From the IMG/VR virus record IMGVR_UViG_3300031787_000044, positions 25,573 to 89,572 of that record: a DNA stretch of 64,000 nucleotides, one strand, 5' to 3'. Both the position numbers and the translations under genes were made by a program. Origin of the DNA: a virus. Below are positions 25,420-59,816 of this stretch, in pieces. The notes under the pieces were generated by a model. It did no database searches and was not told where the DNA came from. It saw only the letters and a list, made by a program, of their open reading frames with translations. Position 1 is the stretch's first letter; each line of letters starts with the position of its first letter.

Positions 25420-26490
25420 ATGTCTTTTTTTGAAAACACCAAGAACGGAACAGAAGTAGAAAATATATACAATTACGAAAACGATCGTAGTTTTGCAAAA
25501 ACAGTACTAGAGGATGGTGGAGACATACATCCTCTTATAATTCCATCAAATCTTACGAATGGTACAGGGTTGATGAATCCGTCTATATTGAATATAGACG
25601 GCAAACTCATTGTCAACATTCGTCACGTGAACTATACGTTCTATCACTCAGAGAGAAAACTATTTCAGCACCCTTGGGGTCCTCTTACTTATCTGCATCC
25701 TGAAAACGATATGCATTTAAGAACTGAAAACTATTACTGCGAACTAAACGATTCCTTTGAGATCTCTCGGTTTAATAAGATAGACACAAGTAAGTTTGAC
25801 ACATACTCACCTATGTGGGACTTCGTTGGTCTTGAGGATGCTCGTCTAATGCATTGGAATGGTAAGATCTTTACTTCTGGAGTTCGTAGAGATACGACGA
25901 CGAACGGCCAGGGTAGAATGGAACTCTGTGAGATAGAAGTTCGTAACGACTCAGTAGTAGAAGTAGCGCGCTGGAGAATTCATCCACCGAAGGATAGAAA
26001 TTCTTATTGCGAAAAGAACTGGATGCCGGTTCTAGATCAACCTTACACATACGTAAAGTGGTGTAACCCAGTTGAGATCGTAAAGGTTGACGAAACGCCG
26101 TTGGACGATAAAGTATTCGAGTCAAATTGGGTAGACTCAAAAACGATCCACCTCGGAGAACGTTTAAACTTTTCTCACAAGGATCCACGCGGTGGATCGC
26201 AACTCATACCTTTCGGAGATAACTATCTCGCGCTTACTCACGAGGTCGATCTATTTAAGAGCGAAGTTGGTAGAAAGGATGGGGTGTATCGTCATAGATT
26301 CGTTCTGTTCGATAAAGATTGGAACGTGCTAAAATCTTCAAAAGACTTTTCATTAATGAATGGACATACGGAATTTGCATGCGGTATGTGCCACTATAAA
26401 GATAAGATACTTATTACATTTGGATTTCAGGACAATGCTGCGTACATACTCGAAGTAAATCCTAAATCTATTGAAGACCTATTACTGTGA
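25420..26490 (+). CDS. GH130-like five-bladed propeller glycosidase/phosphorylase family protein
   Basis: This 356-aa protein shows the GLEDARL element near residue 136, characteristic of the GH130/GH43-like propeller enzymes (mannosyl phosphorylases and relatives have GxEDPR). NPSILNIDGKLIVNIRHVNY near residue 54 is a typical first blade. RGGSQLIPFGDNYLALTHEV and a late MCHYKDKILITFGFQDNAAY resemble later blades. Family members cleave or phosphorolyse mannosides; some phage and bacterial members are of unproven activity. AGGTGA precedes the ATG. It heads a run of glycosyl and methyl transferases, so it may trim or remodel a glycan. Substrate and catalytic competence are not established. Confidence 0.7.
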   Translation: MSFFENTKNGTEVENIYNYENDRSFAKTVLEDGGDIHPLIIPSNLTNGTGLMNPSILNIDGKLIVNIRHVNYTFYHSERKLFQHPWGPLTYLHPENDMHLRTENYYCELNDSFEISRFNKIDTSKFDTYSPMWDFVGLEDARLMHWNGKIFTSGVRRDTTTNGQGRMELCEIEVRNDSVVEVARWRIHPPKDRNSYCEKNWMPVLDQPYTYVKWCNPVEIVKVDETPLDDKVFESNWVDSKTIHLGERLNFSHKDPRGGSQLIPFGDNYLALTHEVDLFKSEVGRKDGVYRHRFVLFDKDWNVLKSSKDFSLMNGHTEFACGMCHYKDKILITFGFQDNAAYILEVNPKSIEDLLL

Positions 26491-38908: not shown

Positions 38909-40573
38909 TTGCGTATCTTTGGCTTTGAGATAAAGAGAGACATCGGCGGTGCCGAAGAAGAAAAAGCTGTCTCCTTTGTAGAACCTAATAACGACGAAGG
39001 TGCGATCACCATAGGAAACTCTTTAGGAGGATCCTATGGTATCGCCATCAACATGGAAGGCGACGCCAAAACAGAAGGCGAACTCGTCACCAAGTATCGT
39101 GGAATGATGATGCAGCCAGAGATAGGTCAGGCAGTTGATGAGGTAGTTAACGAGGCGATCAATATTGATACGCACGAAAACGCTGTAGAGGTAGTTCTAG
39201 ACGACACTGAACTTCCTGATAAAGTAAAGGATCGAATCGTCGAAGAGTTTGAAGAAGTACTTCGTCTTCTTGACTTTTCGAACTATGGGTACGATATCTT
39301 TCAGAAGTTCTACGTAGACGGTCGTCTTAACTATCATATCATTATCGATAATGAAAACATTAAAGACGGTATTAAAGAAATACGATACATCGATCCTCGC
39401 AAACTTCGTCTCGTAAAAGAAATGGACGAGAAGGCGAAAGATCCACATTCAGGTATTCCTCTTAAAAAGATTAAGAAAGAGTACTATCTCTATTCAGATG
39501 CTGGCTTTGGTTCGAAGTCAGTTTCAAACAACATTCATTCTGGGCAAACGGTACAAGGCTATCGCATTGCGAAGGATTCCGTTGCTAGAGTAACGTCAGG
39601 ACTAATGAATGAAACGAACTCATTGGTCCTATCGTATCTTCATCCTGCGATCAAACCGTTAAACCAACTTCGTATGCTAGAAGATGCTACGGTTATCTAT
39701 ACGATCACCCGTGCTCCAGAAAGAAGAATATTCTATATCGACGTAGGACAACTTCCTAAAGCAAAGGCCGAGCAGTACCTACACGATATGATGACTCGTC
39801 ATAAGAATAAACTTCAGTATGACTCTGATAGCGGCGACATTACAGACGGTCGCAAGTTTATGACTATGACTGAAGACTTTTGGTTTCCTCGTAGAGGTGG
39901 CGAGAGATCAACTGAAGTTGATATTCTTGCGGGAGGAAGCGCACAGGCTCTTAGCCAAGATGAAAACCTTCAGTACTTCCAAAGAAAACTGTATAAGTCT
40001 CTAAAGGTTCCGATATCTCGTCTAGAACCAGAAACTATGTATAGCTTTGGAAGAGTCTCAGAAACTACACGTGACGAACTCAAGTTTGGCAAATTCATTC
40101 GCCGTCTAAGAGCTCGTTTCTCTGGTCTATTTGATCTTCTTCTAGAAAAGCAACTCATACTTAAAGGTATCCTAGATCCTGAAGAATGGGCTGAAGTTAA
40201 AGATAAGATCCGCTATGACTTTATGAAGGACAACTACTTTGAGGAACTCAAGCAGACTGAAATTCTTCGTGAAAAAGTCAATATGCTAAAGGATATAGAA
40301 GAGCAGATCGGTAAGTATTACTCTCGTGAGTGGGTCGTTAAGAATGTTCTGTTCATGACTGACGACGAAATGAGAGAGATGCAGAAACAGATGGATAAAG
40401 AGAAAGCAGCTGGTCTATACGATATAGAAATGCCTGGCGATCAACCACCTGACCAAGATCAACAGCCTCCTGCAGATCAACAGCAGCCTCCACAGGACGA
40501 TCTAGAGGCAGAAGAATCATTAAAAGTTATAAATAACAGAATAAAACCATTCAAAAGAGGGCTCAACAAATGA
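38909..40573 (+). CDS. 20: portal vertex protein gp20
   Basis: This 554-aa protein is read from TTG at 38909, with AGGATG at 38897-38902. No ATG is available before the conserved region, so a TTG start is likely. Visible portal features include the MMMQPEIGQAVDEVVNEAI helix, NYHIIIDNENIKDGIKEIRYIDPRKLR, and ETMYSFGRVSETTRDELKFGKFI. The Pro/Gln-rich C-terminus (GDQPPDQDQQPPADQQQ) is probably disordered. gp20 forms the dodecameric portal, nucleates the prohead and anchors the terminase. A late promoter within its last codons serves the next gene. Confidence 0.95.
   Translation: MRIFGFEIKRDIGGAEEEKAVSFVEPNNDEGAITIGNSLGGSYGIAINMEGDAKTEGELVTKYRGMMMQPEIGQAVDEVVNEAINIDTHENAVEVVLDDTELPDKVKDRIVEEFEEVLRLLDFSNYGYDIFQKFYVDGRLNYHIIIDNENIKDGIKEIRYIDPRKLRLVKEMDEKAKDPHSGIPLKKIKKEYYLYSDAGFGSKSVSNNIHSGQTVQGYRIAKDSVARVTSGLMNETNSLVLSYLHPAIKPLNQLRMLEDATVIYTITRAPERRIFYIDVGQLPKAKAEQYLHDMMTRHKNKLQYDSDSGDITDGRKFMTMTEDFWFPRRGGERSTEVDILAGGSAQALSQDENLQYFQRKLYKSLKVPISRLEPETMYSFGRVSETTRDELKFGKFIRRLRARFSGLFDLLLEKQLILKGILDPEEWAEVKDKIRYDFMKDNYFEELKQTEILREKVNMLKDIEEQIGKYYSREWVVKNVLFMTDDEMREMQKQMDKEKAAGLYDIEMPGDQPPDQDQQPPADQQQPPQDDLEAEESLKVINNRIKPFKRGLNK
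40528..40535 (+). promoter_or_regulatory. T4-like late promoter inside 3' end of gp20
   Basis: TATAAATA lies within the gp20 coding region 34 nt before the ATG at 40570. That is the same distance range as the intergenic late promoters. Confidence 0.65.
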
Positions 40574-42885
40574 AGACTCTACGTCAGATAATATCAGAGG
40601 TCGCGCAGCCAAAGGCCGGTGACGAGAAAGATTTCAAAGATAAACATATCATTGATAAGGTAGATCATCCTGTTGCCCCTGATCACGCGTTTACTGGAAA
40701 TACAAAAAAGGCGCCTAAGCGCAGAGCAGACTACGATAAGGGCGAAGATGAGACTGTCTACGAAGGTAGCTTTGATGTTCCTACCGCTGAAGGTGGTGAG
40801 CACGATACCGAGGACAGCCATGTAAAGTATAAGAAGGGAAATAAGCCTTCTAAATCTGTTAACGAAGCAGTGTTTGTAATTCCTGAAGAAATCCTTGCAA
40901 CTGAAAAGAATGCGTTCCACACCGCTGCTGCAAACGCTCACAAGTCAGGTGCAAAGCACTTTGCCTTTGGTGGCAAGAAGTATCCAGTCACGATGTCGAA
41001 GGATGCTGCTAGCACATTCGCTGGTAAGGGTTCCATGAAGAAGGAAGCAATGGATCCGGTCGGCAAAGAAGATGGTGACATTGATAACGACGGTGATAAG
41101 GATAAATCAGATAAGTATCTTCACAATCGTCGTAAAGCGATTGGCAAAGCTATTCGTAAAGAAGAAGTTGAACTCGACGAAGCAACCTTCTCTATGGATA
41201 TCGATGGCAATTATAAGAAAAACGCCGCCTCAGGTGCGTTAAATGCAGGTCTTAAGATTAATTTTAAGCAGCACGGCGGTGCCACAGAAATGATTCTTAT
41301 GGGTGATAAAGATAAGATTACAAAATTCTTAAAAGCTCGTAAGGTTCCATCTGCAGAAATAAACAACGGTTTTGTAAAAGAAGAAGCCGAAGAACTCGAT
41401 GAGATCTCTCGCGACCTTGCTCGTAGATATATTCGTAAAGTTGCTGACAAAACCAACACAGGCGAATTAAGCACTAAGGAAGTCATGAAGCGTAGACCTG
41501 GTGTAAATCTTGCTGGCAAAAAAGCATACCCTGGGGTTGCTGGTGAACCAAAGGTTCGCGCTACCGAGAGTGTAGAGCTGGATGAAATTAGTAAGAAGAC
41601 TCTTGGTTCATATATCAAGAAAGCTAATATAAGCGCTATGGATCAGGCTAGAAAGTCTGGAGAATATAATAACCCAGATCAACCAAAGAATTTTAGCAAA
41701 GCTATGGACAGAATGCGCGGTATTAAAAAGGCAACTGATAAACTCGTTGCTAAAGAAGAAGTCGAACAACTCGACGAGCTTTCTCCAAACACTCTACATA
41801 GCTACATCAAGAAAGCTGCTGGTAATATGGCAGGTAATGCTGCTGTTGCTGCTGCTCAGGCATCTTCATCGATGAAGAAGTCAAGTCCAGATGTAAAGCG
41901 TAAGATCAAGAACCGTATGATGGGTATATCTGGCGCTTCTGGTCGTCTCGCTGATAAAGCAAACATGGCAGAAGACGCATACGAAGAAATTCCGATGATG
42001 ATGAGCCAACTTGAGTTCATTTGCTACGCAGCGGAAGAGATCATGGACTACCTCGATATGGGGATAGACCCAGAAGAGTGGTATCAAAACAAGCTATCAA
42101 ATGCTTATCAGACAATGATGTCTCTATACTCTTATGCTCGTGGCGAGATGAGAATGACATCTAGATCTGGCGGAAGCGGATACTATGACGACATGTATGG
42201 AGAAGAAGTCGAGCAGATTGATGAGATTTCGCAAGACAAACTTCGCGACTATCACGCTGCGGCTGCTTTAGATCTTAAGAAGAAAAGAGAGAAGCTAGAT
42301 AAAGGCACTCTAACTTCTAAAGACTATAAGCAAGGACAGAACCGTGTAACTGGCCTAAACAGATCCGCAAACAAGATGGAAGAAGTTGAACTCGAAGAAG
42401 ATATAACAAAAATGTCTCACGGGCGTCTTAAGTGGCATATGAATAGTGGCGTACCACATGGTAGCTACACTAAAGACGAAATGAAAAAAGAAAGAGATCG
42501 TCGTTTAAAGACAGATCCTATGGGCTATCGCTCAGCAAAGGCTGGTCTTAACGAAGTAACACATACTGCTCTTAAAAAGACTATTTCTTATACGGACTCA
42601 CAAGGAAAGAGCAGAACGAGAAACGTTCCGATCTCAAACGTAGATCGCGATGCAGACGGTGAAGAAAAGATCCGAGAGTCTGTAGAACTTACAGAAGTAT
42701 TCAACCAAGGTATCGTAAAACTTAAGGACGGATCATCTGTAATACTTAAGAAGGAAGACGCCGATCTTCTAAATCAAATGCTTAAGGATCTTTCTTCCGC
42801 AAATCGTAAAAAAATGGAAGAAGTCGCAATGAAAGATAAGACTGGATTTAACGAAATCCTTAGCTTTGCGAGGGAAGCACTATGA
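40570..42885 (+). CDS. large repeat-containing putative prohead-core/internal head protein
   Basis: This 771-aa protein lies between portal gp20 and protease gp21, where T4 has the small core genes 67 and 68. It is highly charged and helical. A motif of the form E-(V/E)-(E)-L-D-E-(I/L)-S...L..YI.K occurs at about residues 273, 335, 399 and 548. A Ca-binding-like acidic run (GDIDNDGDKDKSDKYL) is near 175. The repeated L/I-D-E sites resemble the (L/I)-x-E consensus cut by gp21-type proteases, so it may be packed in the core and cleaved into peptides. Function is inferred from position and motif. It overlaps gp20 and the 79-aa gene by ATGA. Confidence 0.65.
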   Translation: MKTLRQIISEVAQPKAGDEKDFKDKHIIDKVDHPVAPDHAFTGNTKKAPKRRADYDKGEDETVYEGSFDVPTAEGGEHDTEDSHVKYKKGNKPSKSVNEAVFVIPEEILATEKNAFHTAAANAHKSGAKHFAFGGKKYPVTMSKDAASTFAGKGSMKKEAMDPVGKEDGDIDNDGDKDKSDKYLHNRRKAIGKAIRKEEVELDEATFSMDIDGNYKKNAASGALNAGLKINFKQHGGATEMILMGDKDKITKFLKARKVPSAEINNGFVKEEAEELDEISRDLARRYIRKVADKTNTGELSTKEVMKRRPGVNLAGKKAYPGVAGEPKVRATESVELDEISKKTLGSYIKKANISAMDQARKSGEYNNPDQPKNFSKAMDRMRGIKKATDKLVAKEEVEQLDELSPNTLHSYIKKAAGNMAGNAAVAAAQASSSMKKSSPDVKRKIKNRMMGISGASGRLADKANMAEDAYEEIPMMMSQLEFICYAAEEIMDYLDMGIDPEEWYQNKLSNAYQTMMSLYSYARGEMRMTSRSGGSGYYDDMYGEEVEQIDEISQDKLRDYHAAAALDLKKKREKLDKGTLTSKDYKQGQNRVTGLNRSANKMEEVELEEDITKMSHGRLKWHMNSGVPHGSYTKDEMKKERDRRLKTDPMGYRSAKAGLNEVTHTALKKTISYTDSQGKSRTRNVPISNVDRDADGEEKIRESVELTEVFNQGIVKLKDGSSVILKKEDADLLNQMLKDLSSANRKKMEEVAMKDKTGFNEILSFAREAL

Positions 42886-43121
42886 TACTTAAAGCTTTAA
42901 ACACTGAACTATCATTCACATCTGCAAACACCGTATACGACTCAAAACTAGTTCGTATCTATGCGGCTGCAAATTCAGTCATCACAGTTACTAGTGCGAC
43001 GAATCCAACAGCAACGTTCACGATGCCGCAAGGGACGATAGAAATTCTAGAAAAACTTTCTACAGATACGATTGCAGGATCGACCACCATTAAATGCACT
43101 CCAGTTTCATATAAGAATTAA
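42882..43121 (+). CDS. 79-aa beta-rich protein in head gene block
   Basis: This small protein overlaps the preceding gene by ATGA and precedes gp21. Sequence (LSFTSANTVYDSKLVRIYAA.. TATFTMPQGTIEILEK) suggests a compact beta-sandwich, rich in Thr and Ser, with one Cys and no signal or membrane segment. Position in the head-assembly block suggests a core, decoration or assembly factor. I do not recognise a named family. Confidence 0.65.
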   Translation: MILKALNTELSFTSANTVYDSKLVRIYAAANSVITVTSATNPTATFTMPQGTIEILEKLSTDTIAGSTTIKCTPVSYKN

Positions 43122-43150: not shown

Positions 43151-43825
43151 ATGAAACTGATTACAGAAACAATCGAAGAAGTTCAAGTTGTCACTGAGGC
43201 AAACGAGAACGAGCCAAAGCAGTACTTCATCGAAGGTATCTTCATGCAGGGCGATATCAAGAATCGCAACGGACGCATATACCCTTCAACAATTCTTGAA
43301 AAAGAAATGATGAGATATGAGGATCAGTTCATCAAGACAAAGAGAGCTCTTGGCGAACTTGGACACCCAGACGGACCGCAGATAAACGGTGATCGTGTCT
43401 CTCACCTCATCACAGATATGAAGCGTGACGGATCGAACTTCGTTGGTAAAGCAAAGATACTTAGCACACCAATGGGTAACATCGTAAAAACTTTTATCGA
43501 TGAAGGTGTAAAGGTTGGTGTATCTACTCGTGGTCTTGGTTCTGTTAAACCAACTAAAGAAGGTATCATGGAAGTTCAGAACGACTTCCATCTTGCTACT
43601 GTAGATATCGTTACGGATCCTTCGGGTCCAAACTGTTTTGTTAACGGAATCATGGAAAATACAGAGTATTTCTACGACATAGTTTCCGGAACTTGGAGAG
43701 CCCAGCAGATGATCGAAGAGGCCGTGAAGGAAGTGAAGAAAACGTATAAGAGAACTGAAAGAAAGATTGACGAAGCGTTTGCTGCTCGTCTCTTTGAAAA
43801 CTTCGTTCGTTCTCTGAAGAAATAA
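43151..43825 (+). CDS. 21: prohead core protease gp21
   Basis: This 224-aa protein has the T4 gp21/herpes-like protease signature. FIEGIFMQGDIKNRNGRIYP is followed by the His in ALGELGHPDGPQI and the Ser in VKVGVSTRGLGSV. gp21 sits in the prohead core and cleaves core and capsid proteins after glutamate in (L/I)-x-E contexts, making room for DNA. Length matches the family. Late promoter and AAAGGAG precede it. Its likely substrates gp22, gp23 and the 771-aa protein flank it. Confidence 0.95.
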   Translation: MKLITETIEEVQVVTEANENEPKQYFIEGIFMQGDIKNRNGRIYPSTILEKEMMRYEDQFIKTKRALGELGHPDGPQINGDRVSHLITDMKRDGSNFVGKAKILSTPMGNIVKTFIDEGVKVGVSTRGLGSVKPTKEGIMEVQNDFHLATVDIVTDPSGPNCFVNGIMENTEYFYDIVSGTWRAQQMIEEAVKEVKKTYKRTERKIDEAFAARLFENFVRSLKK

Positions 43826-43829
43826 GTTT

Positions 43830-43837
43830 TATAAATA
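43830..43837 (+). promoter_or_regulatory. T4-like late promoter for gp22
   Basis: TATAAATA lies 38 nt before the gp22 ATG chosen at 43876. Confidence 0.72.
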
Positions 43838-43875
43838 TGGATATGAAACACGAATCCATTAAAAGGAGAGTAAAT

Positions 43876-44820
43876 ATGTCAAAGTTAGAAGAAAAATTTG
43901 TAAGCGATGACGGTGTCTCTACGGTTCCTGATGCTGTTACACCAGAAGGTGGAGAAGTTAAGGCACGTAGAGGAGACGTAAAGAAAGCTGTCGATCCAAA
44001 GGCAGGTTCTGTTGCAAAGCCTCCAGTTTCCGAGTCAGAAGAAACTGAAGAAGAAGTAATCGAAGAAGAAGTTGTTTCTATTGAAGAATCAATTTCTAGC
44101 ATGTTCGAAGGTATCGATCTTTCAGAAGAATTCAGATCAAAGGTAACGCTCGTATTCGAAGCAGCTGTAAATGAAGCAGCTCAGATTCGTATAAACGAAG
44201 CAACCGCAGCTCTTGAAGAAGAATTCGAACAAAAGCTTACAGAATCCGTTAGCGAAGCTATGGATGAAATCGTAGAGAATCTAGACTCATACCTCGACTA
44301 TGTAGTAGAAGAGTGGATGAAAGAGAACGAAGTTGCTATCGAAGCTGGTATCAAAGTTGAGATGGCTGAGTCCCTAATGAGTGGACTTAAAGAACTATTC
44401 ACTGAGCACAACATCGATATCGACGATGAGACTCTAGATGTAGTTGCTGGCCTAGAAGAGCACAACGCTTCTCTAGCGGATCAGGCAAACGAAGTGATCA
44501 ACGAAAACATCGAGCTTAAGAAGACTATTGTTGCTCTTAAGGCTGATAAAGTTTTTGAAGAAGTTTCAGAAGGACTCACCGTTTCTCAGAAAGAAAGACT
44601 AAGAGTTCTATCAGAAAAGCTTGACGCTGATAACGTCGATGGCTATAAGTCAGATCTTGAAACTCTTAAGGAATCTTTCTTTAAGACTAAGAAATCTCAA
44701 GTGATCAACGAAGAAGCAGAAGAAGTTCTTACTGAAGAAGTGGCAGTTAAAAAGCCAGCATCTTCGTATTCAACCGTCAATGCCATCGTTGAAGCACTAA
44801 ACAAGAAAACTGTTAAGTGA
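43876..44820 (+). CDS. 22: prohead scaffold (core) protein gp22
   Basis: The ATG at 43876 follows AAAAGGAGAG at 43861-43870. An earlier in-frame ATG at 43837 overlaps the late promoter and would lie at or before the transcript start. The 314-aa product is very acidic, with long helices and coiled-coil propensity, as expected of gp22 scaffolds. Examples are ISSMFEGIDLSEEFRSKVTLVFEAAV, ELKKTIVALKADK and a C-terminal TVNAIVEALNKK. The scaffold fills the prohead and is degraded by gp21. Position between gp21 and gp23 is canonical. Confidence 0.92.
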   Translation: MSKLEEKFVSDDGVSTVPDAVTPEGGEVKARRGDVKKAVDPKAGSVAKPPVSESEETEEEVIEEEVVSIEESISSMFEGIDLSEEFRSKVTLVFEAAVNEAAQIRINEATAALEEEFEQKLTESVSEAMDEIVENLDSYLDYVVEEWMKENEVAIEAGIKVEMAESLMSGLKELFTEHNIDIDDETLDVVAGLEEHNASLADQANEVINENIELKKTIVALKADKVFEEVSEGLTVSQKERLRVLSEKLDADNVDGYKSDLETLKESFFKTKKSQVINEEAEEVLTEEVAVKKPASSYSTVNAIVEALNKKTVK

Positions 44821-44878: not shown

Positions 44879-46189
44879 ATGAGTCAATCTAATAGAACTT
44901 TAGTCGAAAAGTGGGGTCCTCTTCTTGAGCACTCTTCATTCTCGCCAATCAAAGACGAGCACAGAAAAGCAGTAACTGCTACTCTACTCGAAAACACAGA
45001 AAAGGCACTTCTTGAGTCCGGCGACCAGTCAATCAACATGACTTCGCTCCTTCAAGAAGCTCCAACCAACTTCGCCGGAACCGGCGGTTTTGGTTCAAGC
45101 GCAGCTACACCACAAGCTGGTTACGACCCAATCCTCATCAGCCTAGTTCGTCGTTCCATGCCAAACCTAATGGCATACGACATTGCTGGTGTTCAGCCAA
45201 TGACCGGCCCAACTGGTCTTATCTTCGCAATGCGTTCTAACTACAACGCAATGTCAGGTAACACCGCAGTAGAAGCTTTCTACGGCGAAGCTGACTCCGA
45301 CTTCTCCGGTACAGGCACAATGGCTGGTACAACCGGTGGCGCTGCTACCGCAAACACCGGTACTGGTATGACCACTGCAGCTGCTGAAGCTCTTGGCGAC
45401 GGAAACGGAACCAACTTCGCACAGATGGCTCTTGCTATCGAAAAAGTTACCGTATCTGCAAAGAGCCGCGCGCTAAAAGCAGAATACACCACTGAACTTG
45501 CACAAGACCTTCGTGCTGTTCATGGTCTTGACGCAGAGTCCGAACTTGCTAACATTCTTCAGTCTGAAATCCTCGCAGAAATCAACCGTGAAGTTGTTCG
45601 CACAATCTATACCTCTGCTGTAACCGGTGCTGCAAACACTGCTGCTGCTGGCGTATTCGACCTTGACGTTGACTCAAACGGCCGTTGGTCAGTTGAGAAG
45701 TTCAAGGGACTTATGTTCCAGATCGAACTTGAAGCTAATGCAATTGCAAAAGCTACTCGTAGAGGCAAGGGTAACATCGTGGTCTGTTCTTCTGACGTAG
45801 CTTCCGCTCTTCAGATGGCAGGTGTCCTCGATTATACACCAGCTCTCAACAGCAACGCTCTTAACGTAGACGATACCGGAAACACCTTCGCCGGTGTTCT
45901 AAACGGTCGCTACAGAGTTTATGTAGATCCATACGCTGGTGCAAACTACATGGTCGTAGGTTACAAGGGTGCATCTGCTTTCGACGCAGGTATCTTCTAC
46001 TGCCCATACGTTCCACTACAGATGTACCGCGCTGTTGGTGAAGACAGCTTCCAGCCAAAGATCGGCTTCAAAACCCGCTACGGCATGGTTGCTAACCCAT
46101 TCGCTTTCGGCCCAACCCGTAGCGAAGGTGCTCTTACTGCAAACAGCAACGTCTACTACAGACGCGTTAGAGTATCTAACCTATTCTAA
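44879..46189 (+). CDS. 23: major capsid protein gp23
   Basis: This 436-aa protein begins SQSNRTLVEKWGPLLEH and has the conserved DPILISLVRRSMPNLMAYDIAGVQPMTGPTGLIFAMRS block. The end is FGPTRSEGALTANSNVYYRRVRVSNLF. A likely gp21 cleavage site is LLQE-APTNF, which would remove the first 60 residues during maturation. Codons are more uniform and C-ending than in neighbours, as expected for the most abundant virion protein. Two back-to-back terminators follow immediately. No separate gp24 vertex gene is seen in the window. Confidence 0.97.
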   Translation: MSQSNRTLVEKWGPLLEHSSFSPIKDEHRKAVTATLLENTEKALLESGDQSINMTSLLQEAPTNFAGTGGFGSSAATPQAGYDPILISLVRRSMPNLMAYDIAGVQPMTGPTGLIFAMRSNYNAMSGNTAVEAFYGEADSDFSGTGTMAGTTGGAATANTGTGMTTAAAEALGDGNGTNFAQMALAIEKVTVSAKSRALKAEYTTELAQDLRAVHGLDAESELANILQSEILAEINREVVRTIYTSAVTGAANTAAAGVFDLDVDSNGRWSVEKFKGLMFQIELEANAIAKATRRGKGNIVVCSSDVASALQMAGVLDYTPALNSNALNVDDTGNTFAGVLNGRYRVYVDPYAGANYMVVGYKGASAFDAGIFYCPYVPLQMYRAVGEDSFQPKIGFKTRYGMVANPFAFGPTRSEGALTANSNVYYRRVRVSNLF

Positions 46190-46229: not shown

Positions 46230-46256
46230 GGGTGGATCTTCGGATCCACCCTTTTT
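46230..46256 (+). terminator. rho-independent terminator after gp23
   Basis: A 9-bp stem GGGTGGATC/GATCCACCC closes a TTCG tetraloop and is followed by TTTTT. The T-run overlaps the stop codon of the convergent methyltransferase gene. Confidence 0.88.
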
Positions 46257-46890
46257 ATTTAATAGAAGTACGCTTAAAGATGATCGCGCCGTCGATCCAA
46301 CGCTGCTCTTCAAAGCCAATAGCTTTTAGAGCATCAGGAACTAGAGAAACATCTCCCCAGTTAATATCGTCAGCGATACAGTAACCACCGAGTTTAACTT
46401 GGCGCGCGTACTTTTCTACGTCACGAATTGCTTGTACCGTATGTTGACCATCGATGTACAGGAAGTCGATATCATAGATCACAGGCGCATCATCGCTAGC
46501 CTTTCGAATGATCTCTACATATTCAGAACAACCGTTTTCTTCGATCAAAGTAGTAAAGACTTCATAGATCCAAGGCATGTTAACCTTAGTCCAGAACTCG
46601 TAATGCTCGCCATCATATCCCTTTGTAGCTTCTCCGTTATCCCAGGGATCGATCGCGTAGACCTTTCCAGAGTTCATTCGCTTAAGCTCTAGAGCTACTG
46701 GAATGACACTCTTTCCGCCATAGACGCCGATCTCTACGCAAATTGGATCATTAACTCGTGTAAAGATATCATCAATGCAGTCGATAATACATCCTGCTTT
46801 ATCTAGCGAACACCATCCCCATACTCCGTATCGGCTATCGAAGTCGGGATAGATCTTTTCAATAGCTCGTTTGCTTTGTTCCTTGCTCAT
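46255..46890 (-). CDS. class I SAM-dependent methyltransferase (Methyltransf_24-like)
   Basis: This 211-aa protein has motif I ICVEIGVYGGKSVIP (50-64), an acidic AIDPWDNGEA (79-88), and IDFLYIDGQHTVQAIRDVEKY (141-161), which is the hallmark of Methyltransf_24. These enzymes often methylate sugars or small metabolites. Its ATG overlaps the stop of the GapR-like gene (TAATG). It is last in the leftward operon starting at 48418, and so is probably expressed early, unlike the late methyltransferases at 16141 and 26506. The substrate is unknown. Confidence 0.8.
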   Translation of the reverse strand: MSKEQSKRAIEKIYPDFDSRYGVWGWCSLDKAGCIIDCIDDIFTRVNDPICVEIGVYGGKSVIPVALELKRMNSGKVYAIDPWDNGEATKGYDGEHYEFWTKVNMPWIYEVFTTLIEENGCSEYVEIIRKASDDAPVIYDIDFLYIDGQHTVQAIRDVEKYARQVKLGGYCIADDINWGDVSLVPDALKAIGFEEQRWIDGAIIFKRTSIK

Positions 46891-51875: not shown

Positions 51876-54233
51876 TTAGCCGCGCCGTCTTATTCTTGGG
51901 CGAGGCCAAAGCCTCCTTCCATAGTAGACGAAACTTCCGTTTACCGTCCTAGGTCTAAAGTTCGTTTGTGGAAAAATTCCACCTTCAATTAGTCTTTGAT
52001 TAAACCATCTAGCGAATCTATTCGGCGCGCCTTGAAGACTTAGCGTTTGCATTGCGCTATCTTCACCAGTGTCACCCATCTGATCTTTATTTGAAAAATC
52101 TATTAACCATCGAGATGCTTCTTGCTGTTTTATGTTTGGCCAATGTTCCGCAAGACACGCAATCATGCCAGTTACTTGAGGCGCAGCCATGCTCGTACCT
52201 TGCTGCTTGCCTAAGAAGTAGTTCGAGTTTCTAGGATCGAGTACGGATGAGCTCACAGCTCCATATGCAGTATGCGTACTACTCTGTATTTGACGCCCTG
52301 CTGCAAAAATATCAACTTGGTTTCCACAGTTACTAAACGTTGCTTTGTATTCCGCAGAATCGCTTCCTACTGCGCCTACTGTTATAACCGGAGCATATCC
52401 TTGCCCAGCAGCCCCAGTCCCACGATTTAGATACAAAACAAAGTTTGTACCTGAGACCGTAGCATAGAATATATTATTGTAATCCTGATCAATATTATTT
52501 ACAACTTTCCAATATTCATTTCCTGCAGCAGCTATTACTATTATTCCATCATTTATTGCATCTTGTATATCAGCATCGCGTGATGTAGAATAAAACGGAA
52601 CTTCTGGAGTCGTCCCGGTAGTATAGAACCCGCGTGCTTGTAATTCTGCAACTGTAAGAGATCTTCCAGGATTAAAATCTACACCGCGATAAACAACTCT
52701 AGTGACTGGCCCAAAACTGCCAGTGTTCCATATAATACTGCTTCCATAACTATGATTTGATATCGTAGGATTTCTTCTTCCAGTATTCGTGTTAATTGGC
52801 TTGTTATTATGCCAAGCTCGTACATAATCCCAGTATGTTGTAGAATCTAATCCAAGAGTTCCAAAGTTTTGATTTGATGAATAGATGCTAATATTATAAA
52901 TGTTTGCATCTCGAGCCCAACCTTGAGTATTACCAGCTGCGGTTCCTGCGACATGCACGCCGTGATTGTTTTGAGAAGTTCTGTTTGAGCTGTTTGGATC
53001 AACATACGGAGTATACACATAAGTTCCAGTGCCGAAACCAACATCGTTTTGAAACCAATTGTACTGAACTATTCTAGAACCGCCGGTGCCATCAGAATTT
53101 ACAGCAAACTCCGGATGAGACGGATCTACGTGTCCGTCAAAGATTACAACATCAACGTTTCTTCCTGACGCTGTTATAGTTAAGTCTGAAGAAATATTAG
53201 AGGTGTTGTTATCGCCCCAGTTTGTTCTATTCGCAGTGTTGTTTACTAATTGATATATTGAAGGCTCGCTTCCATCACATAAATCAATGCGAGGTTCGGC
53301 AAATTGTAATCTTGTGGTATTATCGTTGCAGTAGTAATGATAGCATCTATGTTGCCCTGTTGTACTAGTTGGGCCCCATTTTAGATCACTAACTATGTTG
53401 CAATAACTAATATTTCTTACTTTTGTTGTACTACCCGGTGTGTAATAACCGGAATCTGGATGATTTCCTGTATGCGTTGTGTTTGATGGGTATATAAATC
53501 CACACACTAGATACCATTGATTCTGTGTTAGAATGCTTGTGCTAGAACATTCCCAATATGGATTACTTTTTTGACTTCCGTCGGACGTAGAAAATACACC
53601 ACCATCCGAATTAGTACCAAGATAAAATGTTCCGCCACTGGTAGACGATGTTCTCCGAACCCATACAGAGAATCTGTAAAGTTTTGATCTATCGATAGCT
53701 AGGTAACTAGTATTCCATCCGCCATCGGCCTCATTGTTTCCGCTTGCCCGCGTTTCCCAAACAACACTCGTATTTCCCCAAGGATCTGTAGCTGATACTC
53801 TCGCGTTTTCAGTAGTGTCACCGTTTTGATTATAATACACGATACTCCCGGTTTGCCCTGCACGCCAATCAGTAGTGTCAATCAAAGATGGTCTAATAGA
53901 CTCTGACTGTCTTAAAAGACCCCAATTTATATCGTTTGCATCGGCGCCCCAATCTTTAGCAAAGCTACCTGATGTAATTTTATATCCTAATGGTCGCGTC
54001 GAGATCTCCAACAATTCTAAGAGTTCAACACCCCAAACTCTCTCGTCTTGACGCAACAGTTCTGCCTCTTCAAAGGTAAGCATATAATGAGTGTTACGGC
54101 TCATTGGTCTTCTTTTTGCTAAAACAACAGCCCTATCTGGAATGTAAAGACTTCCCCCAGGAGTCTCCATGTCTTCGTAGAAACTTTCAAGATCTTCGTG
54201 ATTGTAGAGAGTAACTATCCACTCTTTTAGCAT
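51876..54233 (-). CDS. subtilisin-like (S8) serine protease with inserted binding domain
   Basis: This 785-aa protein has a ~75-residue N-terminal domain (LKEWIVTLYNHEDLESFYEDM..) and a subtilase fold. The presumed catalytic triad is Asp366 (VVIFDGHVDPSH), His424 (NNHGVHVAGTAAG) and Ser681 (QGTSMAAPQVTG), with oxyanion Asn572 (AAAGNEYW). Between NDINWGLLRQ (~100) and the Asp motif lie ~220 residues of beta-rich, Thr/Ser/Trp-rich sequence resembling a jelly-roll carbohydrate-binding module. The stop of the giant fibre gene directly adjoins the ATG, so it is a late protein. No signal peptide is present. It may be virion-borne, processing fibres or degrading host surface protein. Confidence 0.85.
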   Translation of the reverse strand: MLKEWIVTLYNHEDLESFYEDMETPGGSLYIPDRAVVLAKRRPMSRNTHYMLTFEEAELLRQDERVWGVELLELLEISTRPLGYKITSGSFAKDWGADANDINWGLLRQSESIRPSLIDTTDWRAGQTGSIVYYNQNGDTTENARVSATDPWGNTSVVWETRASGNNEADGGWNTSYLAIDRSKLYRFSVWVRRTSSTSGGTFYLGTNSDGGVFSTSDGSQKSNPYWECSSTSILTQNQWYLVCGFIYPSNTTHTGNHPDSGYYTPGSTTKVRNISYCNIVSDLKWGPTSTTGQHRCYHYYCNDNTTRLQFAEPRIDLCDGSEPSIYQLVNNTANRTNWGDNNTSNISSDLTITASGRNVDVVIFDGHVDPSHPEFAVNSDGTGGSRIVQYNWFQNDVGFGTGTYVYTPYVDPNSSNRTSQNNHGVHVAGTAAGNTQGWARDANIYNISIYSSNQNFGTLGLDSTTYWDYVRAWHNNKPINTNTGRRNPTISNHSYGSSIIWNTGSFGPVTRVVYRGVDFNPGRSLTVAELQARGFYTTGTTPEVPFYSTSRDADIQDAINDGIIVIAAAGNEYWKVVNNIDQDYNNIFYATVSGTNFVLYLNRGTGAAGQGYAPVITVGAVGSDSAEYKATFSNCGNQVDIFAAGRQIQSSTHTAYGAVSSSVLDPRNSNYFLGKQQGTSMAAPQVTGMIACLAEHWPNIKQQEASRWLIDFSNKDQMGDTGEDSAMQTLSLQGAPNRFARWFNQRLIEGGIFPQTNFRPRTVNGSFVYYGRRLWPRPRIRRRG

Positions 54234-57200
54234 TTAGGATGCCTCTATCTGTACTAGAGAAAGTGTAACTGTTACAGTTGACGTTCCTTCACCCTGATAT
54301 GTTACTTTACACGGAATGTTAGTTGTTGGAGTCGTTTCATAATTATATCCGAAAACAGCAGGAGAGATTAAAACAGTTTCAGAACCACCTGTTACAACTT
54401 CAACAATAACTCCAGCATCTGGATCCGGATCTGTGTATTGATTTCTTGATGCATCTGCTGTTCTACTCGCACCATTTACATATAGTCTCACCCAAGCAGC
54501 TGCGCTAGTGGTGATAGCCATTAGAGAATATCCTTTGAACCCGGTAATATTTAGATCTGCAGTACTAAAGCTTGCTAAAGAAGAAGTTGTTCCGGCCACT
54601 GTTGTTCTAGCAGCCATGCCAGATCCACCTTCGCCTCCACTGGTACCTTGAATACCTTGCGGGCCAGTTATACCCTGAACCCCTTGAGACCCAGCCCCAC
54701 CAGTACCCTGAATACCCTGAACACCTTGAGACCCAGCACCACCAGTACCCTGAATACCTTGGACGCCTTGATTTCCAGAAATGCCTTGGATGCCCTGTTC
54801 ACCGGTAATACCTTGTTGACCGGTGATACCCTGAATACCTTGGACGCCTTGATTTCCAGAAATGCCTTGGATGCCCTGTTCACCGGTAATACCTTGTTGA
54901 CCGGTGATACCCTGAATACCTTGGATACCTTGCGATGCAATTCCTTGCACACCCTGTAAATTTCCGGTGTGATAAACAGTATAATCGTTTATCTTTACAC
55001 CATTTATACTTGGAACTCTAAAGTGGATTTCGTCATCTGCGTCATTTGTCATTTGTAGTGTAAGCTGTGTGGCTTCACCGGATGAAGCTGTAAGATACAT
55101 AGATGCGGTATCACCGCCTCCACCAAACGCATCGTTAGGGAATCTTATTCCACTCGCACTAGCGTGAATTGTGTTAGTCGTATGCACAGTGCCATCTTCA
55201 TTTATTCTAAAGATCGTATTTGTGCTATTAACAGTATCTATATAAGGGCGCGTGTTATTGTAGAAACCGAAATAATTACTAGCTTCTGTATTGTTATCAT
55301 CTATAAAGAAGTGCATAGACTGTCTAGAATAAGCGGCCCAGGCGTTTTCTCTATCGGTCGGTTCGTCATAATCTGGATCTATTCTAAGACTCGCCTCACT
55401 CGCAGCTGCCCCAGAAGTACCTTGAATACCTTGAATACCTTGAATACCTTGACGACCTTGAATACCCTGAATACCTTGCGAACCCGATCCACCACCTCCA
55501 ATTACGTATGTTTCAGAGTCGAATGAAGATCTCCAAACTGTAGTCCCGCTATCTGGGTTGTGATAGAACCTTCCAGGCTCAGAAATTTCACTAAACGGAC
55601 TTACAACATCCGTAACATCTTGGTAATACGGAGCAGTTGACGATGGGCCGTAGACTCTGCCTGTCTCTACATCATATACAAGACCATCGTCATCCGAAAC
55701 ACCGCCAAACGTCGCGTTCGTAAAAAACGACGATGCCTGACTATGGACCAAATAACCGTACTGTTTAGAGCCTTGGAATTTTGCCAAATATGCTGCACTA
55801 GTTAGATTAACTGTGAGTGCCGAGGCGCTAAGAAGAGTTGTGCTGCCGAATGCCGATGTTTTCGCGGTAATGCTATTCCCGCTTCTAACTATTTCTACTC
55901 TAGTAGATCCAAGCGCAGCCCAACCACCGGTTGCTGGAACCGAAGAAGACCCGTTACTAATAACAACTTGGTCAGATTGTAAAAGATTATAAACTAACGA
56001 CCAAGTCCCGACCGCCGCGCCCGACCCTCCACCGGTTCTAATTGCTGATAGCGTATGTTCTCTATAGCCAGCTTGACCAAACGTTCCTTCGGTTGCGAAT
56101 GCAATCACTACACCAATCGTGTCATTGTCACCAGCAGAGCTAGAAAGGTCAACCGTGTGAGTATACGTTAAGTATCTTTTCTCAGAAACAAACCCGGCTG
56201 CAGTTCCAGTATTCAATGAGCCAAGGATTCTTTGGTTGCCTGCGTCATAAGACCATTGCGACGGTCCTACGTCTGCAGCACTAGCTGGATATACTAGAGA
56301 AGAATTATGTGAAAACCTATACCAAGTGTTAAAGATTTCTTGTTGACTAACTACCGGTGGAGGACCGGTAAAGTAAGTAGGTAATTCACTCACATTAGTG
56401 ATGATAGTTGGTTCTATGTTAAGAAGATCGTCGAATTCCGCGTTGTTTGTGCCGCTCTGTGAATTATATAAGACCTCGCCTTCTTGACCGATAGGCAGTG
56501 TTGAGCCTCCGCCTGCGCCAGCGTTACCTTGAACTCCTTGAATACCCTGTGAGGTTCCGGCTTGTCCTTGAAGACCCTGTTCTCCAGCACCCGTAATTCC
56601 TTGAATGCCAACACTTCCTTGAATACCTTGGATACCCTGTACACCTTGGTCTCCTGTACCTTGGATACCCTGAATACCTTGTCTACCCTGAATACCCTGA
56701 ATACCTTGACGACCCTGAATACCTTGGATTCCTAGAATACCCTGAGTACCTTGTTCACCACGAATACCTTGGAAACCTTGCCTTCCTTGTACGCCTTGTG
56801 CGCCAGTCGTTCCTTGTCTTCCCTGAAAACCTACACTGCCTTGGACTCCTTGACGCCCTGTAGTACCTTGAGTACCTTGACGTCCTTGGACTCCTTGGCT
56901 GCCTTGTGTTCCCTGCGTTCCTTGCGTTCCTTGAATACCTTGTACACCTTGGTTTCCTTGAATACCCTGGATACCTTGACGACCCTGGATACCTTGAATA
57001 CCCTGAATACCTTGACGACCCTGAATACCCTGAATGCCTTGGATACCTTGAATACCCTGGATACCTTGGATACCCTGTACGCCTTGAATACCTTGAATAC
57101 CCTGGATACCTTGGCGACCTTGAGTACCTTGCATGCCCTGGATACCTTGACGGCCCTGGCTACCTTGGATACCTTGAACACCTTGACGGCCCTGAATACC

Positions 57201-59816
57201 CTGGCGTCCCTGAACGCCCTGAATACCTTGGCGGCCTTGGGTTCCTTGCGTTCCTTGAATACCCTGAGTACCAAAGCCTCCCTGAACACCTTGCACACCT
57301 TGGCCTGGACCCCTTAGGCCTTGAATACCTTGTATGCCTTGATCTCCAATAGTTCCTTGCGATCCGGTATTTCCAGTACCTTGAATACCTTGAGGACCGA
57401 CGCGACCCTGAACACCCTGAACACCCTGCTCGCCTTGAATACCTTGTCGGCCTTGTGTTCCCTGCGTTCCTTGCACGCCTTGGATACCTTGCGGCCCAAC
57501 AACATTTCCTACATTTATCCACTCTCCGCCAGCATCAGGCGTGAACACCCACAAATCGAGCGTAGCTTCATCGATAACCGCTTCACCAGGAGTCGCACCA
57601 GGAAACGCAGATTCTAATATGATTTGCGGATCAAATGTTGGCGCTTGATTTACATCTTGAATAGAACCGAGTATTCTAAATGGACTTCCAACTGTACCTT
57701 GGATACCCTGAATACCCTGCTCGCCTTGAATACCCTGAACGCCTTGGATAGAAGTTCCTTGAATACCTTGGCGGCCTTGATTGCCTTGAATACCCATGTT
57801 TCCAATAATGCCTTGGAAACCCTGAGGTCCTTGCATACCTTGGTTACCCTGAATACCCTGTTCACCTTGAATACCCTGAATACCCTGTTCACCTTGAATA
57901 CCTTGGATACCCTGAATACCTTGGCGTCCTTGGATACCTTGGATACCTTGAGGACCTACTATGTCACCAGTGTTAATCCATTCCGTACCATTCCATAACC
58001 ATAACTCATTTAGCATTTCGTCAATAACGCCGTCCGACAAGTCCGGGCTGGCTATGGCAGGTCTTTGAGTTGGCGGTTGCCCATCGAGCGTCGGACCAAA
58101 CGCTTCTCTTATTATTTCTTCTGGAGTTCTAGCAGGAAAATTAACATTTACGTCTTCGATAGATCCTATTATCCTAAACGGATCGCCAACCTTCCCTTGG
58201 ATACCTTGGATACCCTGTAAACCTTGACTACCCTGGATGCCTTGACCACCTTCACCACCTTGGATACCCTGAACACCCTGTTCGCCCTGAATACCTTGAA
58301 GACCTTGATGTCCGCCTCCACCCTGGATACCTTGAACGCCCTGATCCCCTTGAACACCTTGGTTGCCCTGAACGCCCTGAATACCTTGGAAACCTTGAAT
58401 ACCCTGTACACCTATATTACCAGCAACGCCTTGGTTACCTTGAATACCTTGAGTACCTTGGATACCCTGCAGTCCTTGTAGACCTTGAACTCCTTGAGTA
58501 CCTTGGCTACCTTGAGTACCTAAGTTCCCTTGTACACCTTGAACCCCTTGAAAGCCCTGAATGCCTTGAAATCCACGGATACCTTGAATACCCTGCATAC
58601 CTTGGAAACCTCGTGGACCTTGGATAGGCCCAACATTTATCCAAACTCCGCCACCGGTATATGCCCAAAGCTCAACCTCGCGTGGTGGGACTGCCAGTTC
58701 TGCGCTATCTATTACGGTATCTCCAATTACCGCAGAAGGAAATTCAGAATTTAATAAACCGTTGGGATCTCCAGTGGCATATACATCGTCTACGGAGCCA
58801 ATGATTTTGAGAGCTGGACCAAAATTTCCTTGAATGCCTTGGAAACCTTGGAAACCTTGATTGCCAGTAATTCCTTGAACTCCTTGAGTACCTTGGAAAC
58901 CTTGCGATCCTTGAGTACCTTGGAAACCTTGAACGCCCTGCTGGCCGGTGATACCTTGGACACCTTGATTTGCAGTACCTTGGATACCTTGTATACCCTG
59001 TTCGCCTTGAATACCTTGGAAACCTTGGAATCCTTGAGTACCCTGCTCACCTTGAATACCCTGGATACCCTGAATACCTTGCTCACCTTGGATACCCTGC
59101 TCGCCTTGTACACCCTGGATACCTTGACCACCAACAAACCCTGCAGTACCCTGTGTACCTTGCTCGCCCGTGTTACCTTGAAGACCCTGAACACCTAAAC
59201 CGCCGGTGCCTTGAATACCTTGGAAACCTTGCAGTCCTTGAAATCCCTGAAAACCCTGGATACCTTGCATACCCTGGACGCCTTGATCACCCTGAAGACC
59301 CTGAACGCCTTGAACACCCTGAACACCCTGCTCACCTTGGATACCCTGCATTCCTTGGAAGCCTTGAATACCTTGGAAACCACGGATACCTTGGATACCT
59401 TGATCTCCAGTACCCTGAACGCCCTGTTCACCAGTAACACCCTGAACGCCCTGTTCACCTTGGATACCCTGAACACCTTGCTCTCCAGTAGTACCCTGAA
59501 CACCCTGTTCACCCATTATACCTTGTAAACCCTGAAAGCCAACTTCTCCGCGGCCGTCAATTCCTTGGATACCTTGCTCACCTTGGACACCTTGGATACC
59601 TTGGATACCCTGAATACCTTGGATACCCTGAATACCTTGAGTTCCTTGTATACCTTGAACGCCTTGAACACCCTGATAGCCCTGAATACCCTGGGTGCCT
59701 TGCCCATTCGTTCCAGGATTAAGTCTTAGCCAGATATTGGTCCCAGCGTTGTAAATAAACGTGGACCCGCCGATAACGTGAGTATCTCCATCAGATGGTG
59801 ATGCAGGAAATGACAT
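54234..59816 (-). CDS. giant collagen-like tail fibre (1860 aa)
   Basis: The first ~40 residues are a fibre adaptor ([30 protein letters not shown]). Gly-X-Y triplets (mostly GIQ, GVQ, GFQ) then fill most of residues 40-1095. They are broken by three ~60-aa knobs at about 332-400, 543-625 and 708-770, each with a VIGS/ILGS..DV opening and an ELW/LWV...WIN.G closing. A beta domain (~1100-1440), a short shaft, a second domain ending YHTGN (~1470-1610), another shaft and a ~115-residue tip (~1745-1860) follow. No S74 chaperone is present. It is a long adhesive fibre; its length would make the collagen part alone several hundred nanometres if fully extended, an estimate from triplet rise. Confidence 0.85.

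Follow-up and report, generated by a model that had tools for sequence, protein, structure and literature searches.

The internal proteins of phage T4 are injected into the host, and one of them, IPI, blocks a restriction enzyme. Here we describe a gene that probably delivers comparable cargo from a single chain, found in a 64,000-nt stretch of viral DNA (hereafter the window), which spans positions 25,573 to 89,572 of the 89.6-kb virus record IMGVR_UViG_3300031787_000044 of IMG/VR. The gene is an open reading frame (ORF) of 771 amino acids (aa) at 40570..42885 on the plus strand, located between the genes for the portal gp20 and the prohead protease gp21. T4 internal proteins are described as diverse defence proteins that have their targeting sequence alone in common (PMC3012670). 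According to the account of T4 head assembly in PMC9026906, the first ten residues suffice for capsid targeting, in which residues 4 and 7 carry the most weight, whereas processing depends chiefly on residues 8 and 10, and gp21 cleaves after L/I-x-E. Like the T4 internal proteins, the 771-aa protein has a ten-residue N-terminal signal with hydrophobic residues at positions 4 and 7; it shares (L/I)-x-E at positions 8-10 with IPII and IPIII, and proposed gp21 processing and hypervariable cargo with IPI, IPII, IPIII and Alt. Whereas the T4 proteins are encoded by separate genes, each with its own signal, a single head-block gene here holds about ten units behind one signal. Its sequence suggests a system that works like that of the T4 internal proteins but combines in one chain what T4 spreads over separate genes.

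Three other described systems bear comparison. The polyvalent proteins of phages and conjugative elements likewise carry several small domains per chain in mosaic arrangement, are thought to be delivered together with DNA and separated by protease, and are likened by their authors to polyproteins (PMC5512222). They contain embedded metallopeptidase domains, whereas a Pfam search of 38 members of the 771-aa family found no peptidase domain; the proposed cutter, gp21, would act in trans, and the targeting signal is of T4 type. In ejection proteins of giant phages (phiKZ; gp53 of SPN3US), the prohead protease is reported to cut after the Glu of a three-residue motif, several times per protein (PMC10052503). 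Those cuts trim propeptides, whereas cuts in the 771-aa chain would separate units. Finally, DarB of phage P1 is a large protein carried in the head by means of an N-terminal signal, as reported in PMC9024508, but this 250-kDa antirestriction protein lacks the organisation into short swappable units joined at L/I-x-E seams. No published account of the 771-aa protein or of a T4-type internal-protein polyprotein was found in a literature search whose coverage left most subscription journals outside.

We consider it probable that the 771-aa protein is an internal-head-protein polyprotein that is targeted once and diced by gp21, its units being packed with the DNA and probably ejected. By virtue of its N-terminal capsid-targeting sequence, the entire chain would enter the prohead core as one item, and there gp21 would cut after (L/I)-x-E, both at the end of the signal and at the seams between units. 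About ten small units, the majority with a predicted fold, would thereby be set free inside the head; they would stay with the DNA, be packed together with it and probably be ejected into the host. The seams also mark the borders of units that are gained, lost, duplicated and swapped among phages of the group. Prohead entry and cutting by gp21 are predicted from the sequence evidence below combined with established gp21 biology; what we infer from there is that the chain is cleaved in vivo, that its units remain in the mature head and are ejected, and that they may act on the host.

The start of the 771-aa protein (MKTLRQIISE↓V, the arrow marking the cut predicted after Glu10; residues 1-10, 40570..40599, plus strand) is in identical register with the start of T4 IPII and IPIII (MKTYQEFIAE↓A), and judged by this register it qualifies as a capsid-targeting sequence. 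Relatives were gathered by scanning viral contigs with three queries: the 771-aa protein (21 loci), the protease (80 loci), a query independent of the 771-aa protein, and the conserved C-terminal domain (55 loci). Glu was found at position 10 in 31 of 39 non-redundant family ORFs beginning with MK, the eight misses being five second ORFs of tandem pairs, two proteins with Glu at position 9 and one truncated frame. A second set, consisting of the 14 proteins left of 28 new ones after redundancy removal, had its starts chosen by pattern without a requirement for Glu10, and all 14 carry it. Tandem pairs of family ORFs occur in six loci (L057, L073, L087, L093, L094 and L100); the second ORFs all begin with MK, and in five of them LDE or LGE lies near residue 14-16, in place of the Glu at residue 10 or, in L057, in addition to it.

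In the whole window, a pattern for this register matches one start codon, that of the 771-aa ORF, and a matching start lies directly after the portal gene in 51/51 protease-selected loci with a visible portal. Across 75 protease-selected loci, 66 of 13241 start codons match, 60 of them between portal and protease; the other six represent one antisense frame in three contigs. As outside controls, the pattern picked only ipII and ipIII from the 55-76 kb region of T4 (ipI, in the same region, lacks the site at that place and escapes) and returned no match in T4 98-106 kb. The gene for cytidyltransferase T4-GC190 was the sole match in 49 kb of cyanophage S-SM2, and the same gene plus one 61-aa frame with a GTG start were the matches in approximately 158 kb of P-SSM4.

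T4-GC190 was found in purified S-SM1 virions (PMC3037559), and the gene beside it holds units of the 771-aa family in several cyanophages. Together, these two facts provide, in our view, the strongest independent support for head targeting, and T4-GC190 may itself be an injected enzyme. Copies with a targeting-like start are located at L109:3712-4863, L111:15762-16988, L107:3802-4986, L027:2623-3828 and L106:3053-4270. The start reads MKSFFQFLSE↓A and similar, and the ACG-2014f version is two residues longer. T4-GC190 resembles the 771-aa protein in its start and in having family units in the next gene, but it differs in consisting of a single enzyme domain with flanks, at a different locus and with few seams. 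Similar units in cyanophage genes that lie close to those for primase and nrd would suit an early host-takeover or DNA-binding protein placed in the head block by accident. We find this hardly credible for the 771-aa protein, given that its ATG start overlaps the stop codon of the portal gene by 4 nt (portal gp20, 38909..40573, plus strand, PF07230, 5e-155), that a targeting-like start recurs at every one of the 51 loci mentioned above, and that the adjoining cyanophage gene with the same type of start is represented in virions.

The second line of evidence is the distribution of gp21-type sites along the chain. The protein contains eleven [LI]xE sites in total, including five [LI]DE sites with the P1 Glu at residues 204, 278, 339, 403 and 552. 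A preliminary description of the window had noticed a 771-aa head-block protein with four spaced copies of a motif containing L-D-E, which it read as possible protease sites, each followed by a basic helix. Both the ORF and the four copies hold up: sites of the form (L/I)DE(I/L)S occur at 278, 339, 403 and 552, one of them literally VELDEIS and one with IDE, and sites beyond these four include ISE 10, LEE 610, LNE 662 and LTE 709. A basic helix (YIRKV or YIKKA) follows only three copies, the fourth running on as DKLRDYHAAA. As for protease sites, the motif fits gp21, the sites mark unit boundaries and the N-terminus is targeting-like, a combination that makes prohead processing the best reading.

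In 47 non-redundant homologues (19,932 residues), [LI]DE was observed 111 times, compared to a mean of 12.7 and a maximum of 23 in 300 shuffles. The second set gave 36 occurrences compared to 4.9 expected (maximum 10), and a chance motif was rejected because the counts lie far above the shuffles in both sets. Among the controls in the 47 proteins, [LI]xD was not enriched (144 compared to 158 in shuffles) and [LI]xK was mildly so (375 compared to 269.5). Since selecting seams by their motif would be circular, we read them at fixed distances from conserved unit cores. At the anchored seam of the C-terminal domain, [LIVM]xE (background frequency 0.024) was found in 26/33 proteins, and in the second set in 10/14 at the exact position and 13/14 near it. 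The same motif stood at the seam of the TGPDGK unit in 15/15 copies, this seam sitting one residue from its initial placement, and at that of the EIPMMM unit in 11/11 copies. Many different residues occupy P2 at the anchored seams, and the Glu of [LI]xE is more conserved than other Glu residues (0.77 vs 0.59). For comparison, [LI]xE occurs at the expected processing place of the gp23 precursor in all but one of the distinct relatives (33/34), the exception lying on a truncated contig; in the window, the major capsid precursor gp23 (44879..46189, plus strand, PF07068) has LQE↓AP at residue 60.

The borders of exchanged segments point the same way. Close relatives were compared for insertions and deletions (indels) of at least 20 aa, which numbered 66 before merging and 33 once merged. 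Half of the indel ends (33/66) lie within 6 aa of an [LI]xE site (null 9.8, maximum 19), and in 12/33 indels this is true of both ends (null mean 1.21, maximum 5, 1000 draws); at 9 aa these numbers rise to 49/66 ends and 19/33 indels. The control motifs [LI]xD and [LI]xK were at or under the null for indel ends at 6 aa. [LI]xE also lies within 8 aa of 174/440 starts and 96/273 ends of high-scoring segment pairs, for a null of 18% each. Tandem duplications of 74 aa in L139 and 41 aa in L135 have units that terminate at seam sites. These were detected by an ungapped diagonal scan; a self-BLAST for internal repeats had returned none, which we think reflects the fact that BLAST drops contained alignments.

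The seams could also be read as flexible, recombination-prone linkers or scaffold-docking motifs, the EEVELDE stretches then belonging to a multidomain internal protein that stays uncut. The linker indeed exceeds what a gp21 site requires in both length and acidity, Glu and Val being abundant at P4-P8, and recombination is favoured by any type of repeat. Nevertheless, we judge this improbable: unit-anchored seams retain hydrophobic-x-Glu while P2 varies, the gene is beside that of gp21, and the seams share the motif of gp23. The codons of the window seams also differ synonymously, which points to selection on the protein; together with the variation at P2, these codon differences led us to reject a simple repeated linker.

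Several observations weigh against a polyprotein cut by gp21. The homologues are kin, such that their motif counts are not independent, and the 377-aa relative L013 has no [LI]DE at all. At the assumed seam, [LIVM]xE was found in only 1/5 copies of the EF-hand unit and 0/4 copies of the LDHNKNGKID unit; (L/I)-x-E otherwise stands at the functional boundaries, as expected of a gp21 substrate, barring these two unit types. Asp at P2 is unused in gp23 sites, yet present in many seams. The phiM12 protein and L020 carry Glu at position 9 instead of 10. As to exchange, in 21/33 indels at least one end lies more than 6 aa from any [LI]xE site, and at 6 aa [KR]xE (19/66 ends, null 8.5) and [AG]xE (17/66, null 7.6) are raised as well, probably owing to the abundance of Glu and Lys in the linkers. 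Lastly, no function could be assigned to most units.

The 771-aa protein consists of a conserved N-terminal piece, about nine exchangeable units and a conserved C-terminal piece, and the number of units between the conserved ends varies among relatives. The longest ORF in the portal-to-protease gap ranges from 200 to 771 aa in the 51 protease-selected loci whose portal gene is visible; the longest protein of the C-terminal-domain set reaches 898 aa, and the protein of Sinorhizobium phage phiM12 has 135 aa and consists of the two end pieces alone. The shared N-terminal piece reads MK[ST]F..I(L/I)SEVAQPK..E..FKD.H...HPVA. and its domain (residues 11-66, 40600..40767) matches phrog_26626, the phiM12 protein and an 85-aa protein of DLP_6 (HHalign 92%). 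The latter, at L026:5864-6121, is annotated as a holin; it is probably a head-core protein. All units described below are encoded on the plus strand, as is the N-terminal domain. The units between sites 106 and 204 (40888..41181) include the EF-hand-like DIDNDGDKDKSD, and the same unit is present in cyanophage proteins beside the cytidyltransferase gene. Next is unit 205-278 (41182..41403), which the 858-aa relative L009 lacks as a whole block. This unit is followed by unit 279-339 (beginning ISRDLARRYIRKV, 41404..41586), by unit 340-403 (beginning ISKKTLGSYIKKA, 41587..41778), similar to a unit in P-TIM68 and S-SKS1, and by unit 404-468 (beginning LSPNTLHSYIKKA, 41779..41973), which ends in MAE and is present in L012 and L126. 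Next come the helical EEIPMMM unit 469-552 (41974..42225), whose seam is the EIPMMM seam above, and units 553-610 (beginning ISQDKLRDYHAAA, 42226..42399) and 611-662 (42400..42555), which are missing together as a block from L013. Unit 663-709 (42556..42696) is of the T..A.KK..TGPDGK.RTV type with the TGPDGK seam. The C-terminal domain (residues 710-771, 42697..42882; G..KLKDG....K.DA.LLN......GF.EI..FA.EA) is modelled with a per-residue confidence (pLDDT) of about 96.

AlphaFold2, run with 33 alignment rows, gave a mean pLDDT of 65.5 and a predicted template modelling score of 0.26 for the whole protein, and the model suggests folded beads joined by low-confidence seams with no global arrangement. 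Every one of the ten inner [LI]xE sites is at most 5 residues away from a stretch with pLDDT below 50, which holds for 49% of residues overall. Foldseek retrieved no PDB match at E≤0.001 and two viral matches at that threshold, to phage proteins that are uncharacterised or named after an EF-hand. The 771-aa protein matched no Pfam family at E≤0.01, and Pfam and PHROG searches assigned it no function. Over the 38 members, Pfam found HNH_3 in six (below cut-off where inspected) and DUF3008 in a single protein (2.8e-22), along with weak matches to EF-hand and isolated matches to other families. Pelagibacter phages HTVC025P and HTVC041P have free-standing HNH proteins that match the HNH unit. The idea put forward in the preliminary description that processing would release basic peptides is right in part, given the mixed charges of the pieces: among 194 inner pieces in the family, 70% carry a positive and 26% a negative charge, and the ten window pieces of at least 40 aa comprise four at +2 to +5, three at +1 and three negative (-1, -5 and -7).

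The main rival is a disposable core protein, according to which the chain takes part in assembling the prohead core before gp21 chops it and the pieces exit, the units being filler without cargo function. The gene does occupy the portal-to-protease slot of T4 genes 67 and 68, whose products are likewise presumed gp21 substrates, and fragments of gp67, gp68 and gp22 are reported to leave the T4 head for the most part (PMC9026906). In addition, the window gp22 has 16 [LI]xE sites in 327 aa, and the phiM12 protein, reduced to its end domains, implies that the middle is dispensable in some phages. The earlier proposal that the 771-aa gene replaces 67 and 68 is borne out with respect to the slot only: HHalign gave the conserved ends at most 0.2% probability of homology to gp67 or gp68, in a comparison whose single-sequence templates limit its power, and the family is up to ten times longer, with folded exchangeable units. 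Sites are spaced by about 70 aa, compared to about 20 in gp22, and units recur in other genes of cyanophages and of phage Melnitz. The conservation of the units, the predicted folding of many of them and the match of some to free-standing families (HNH, DUF3008) argue against a disposable core, which we therefore hold to be unlikely, though a serious contender.

Downstream of the portal gene, the order is 771-aa ORF, 79-aa ORF (42882-43121, matching phrog_19805), gp21 (43151..43825, plus strand; Peptidase_S77 PF03420, 9.5e-36; phrog_207, 6e-73), scaffold gp22 (43837..44820, plus strand; PF25623, 7e-64) and gp23. Small ORFs similar to the 79-aa ORF come next after the polyprotein gene in most relatives. 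Just past gp23, an antisense ORF (46255-46890, minus strand) looks by eye like a methyltransferase dependent on S-adenosylmethionine. Further along the minus strand, a 785-aa protein with a subtilase domain (51876-54233) adjoins an 1860-aa tail-fibre-like protein with collagen repeats (54234-59816); the pair may represent a fibre equipped with a dedicated protease for its processing. Elsewhere in the family, Methylophilales phage Melnitz has two adjoining genes built of family units outside the head block (L108:3261-5405), and an otherwise near-identical copy of the gene is broken into two frames at L005:667-2881, by sequencing error or a real frameshift. The family is also present in two contigs (L168 and L169) binned with a Rhodobacteraceae metagenome genome, a weak hint of an alphaproteobacterial host for part of the group.

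Because the seams delimit exchangeable units, the cargo of the 771-aa polyprotein can change while one signal and two end domains stay. More tentatively, we propose a cassette polyprotein, in which one signal and a trans-acting protease deliver changeable small proteins and the cleavage sites serve as insertion joints for new units; on balance we stop slightly short of favouring this extension. To our knowledge, the diversification of such cargo in phages related to T4 is largely unstudied. Candidates could be read directly from sequence as the units between sites, each small enough to express and assay, and the targeting pattern would flag packaged proteins in other T4-like genomes, thereby making the injected content of these phages directly testable. 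If the proposal is true, no new promoter, gene or signal would be needed for each cargo item, and the T4-like phages of this group would reshuffle an injected arsenal of, for example, anti-restriction or takeover peptides.

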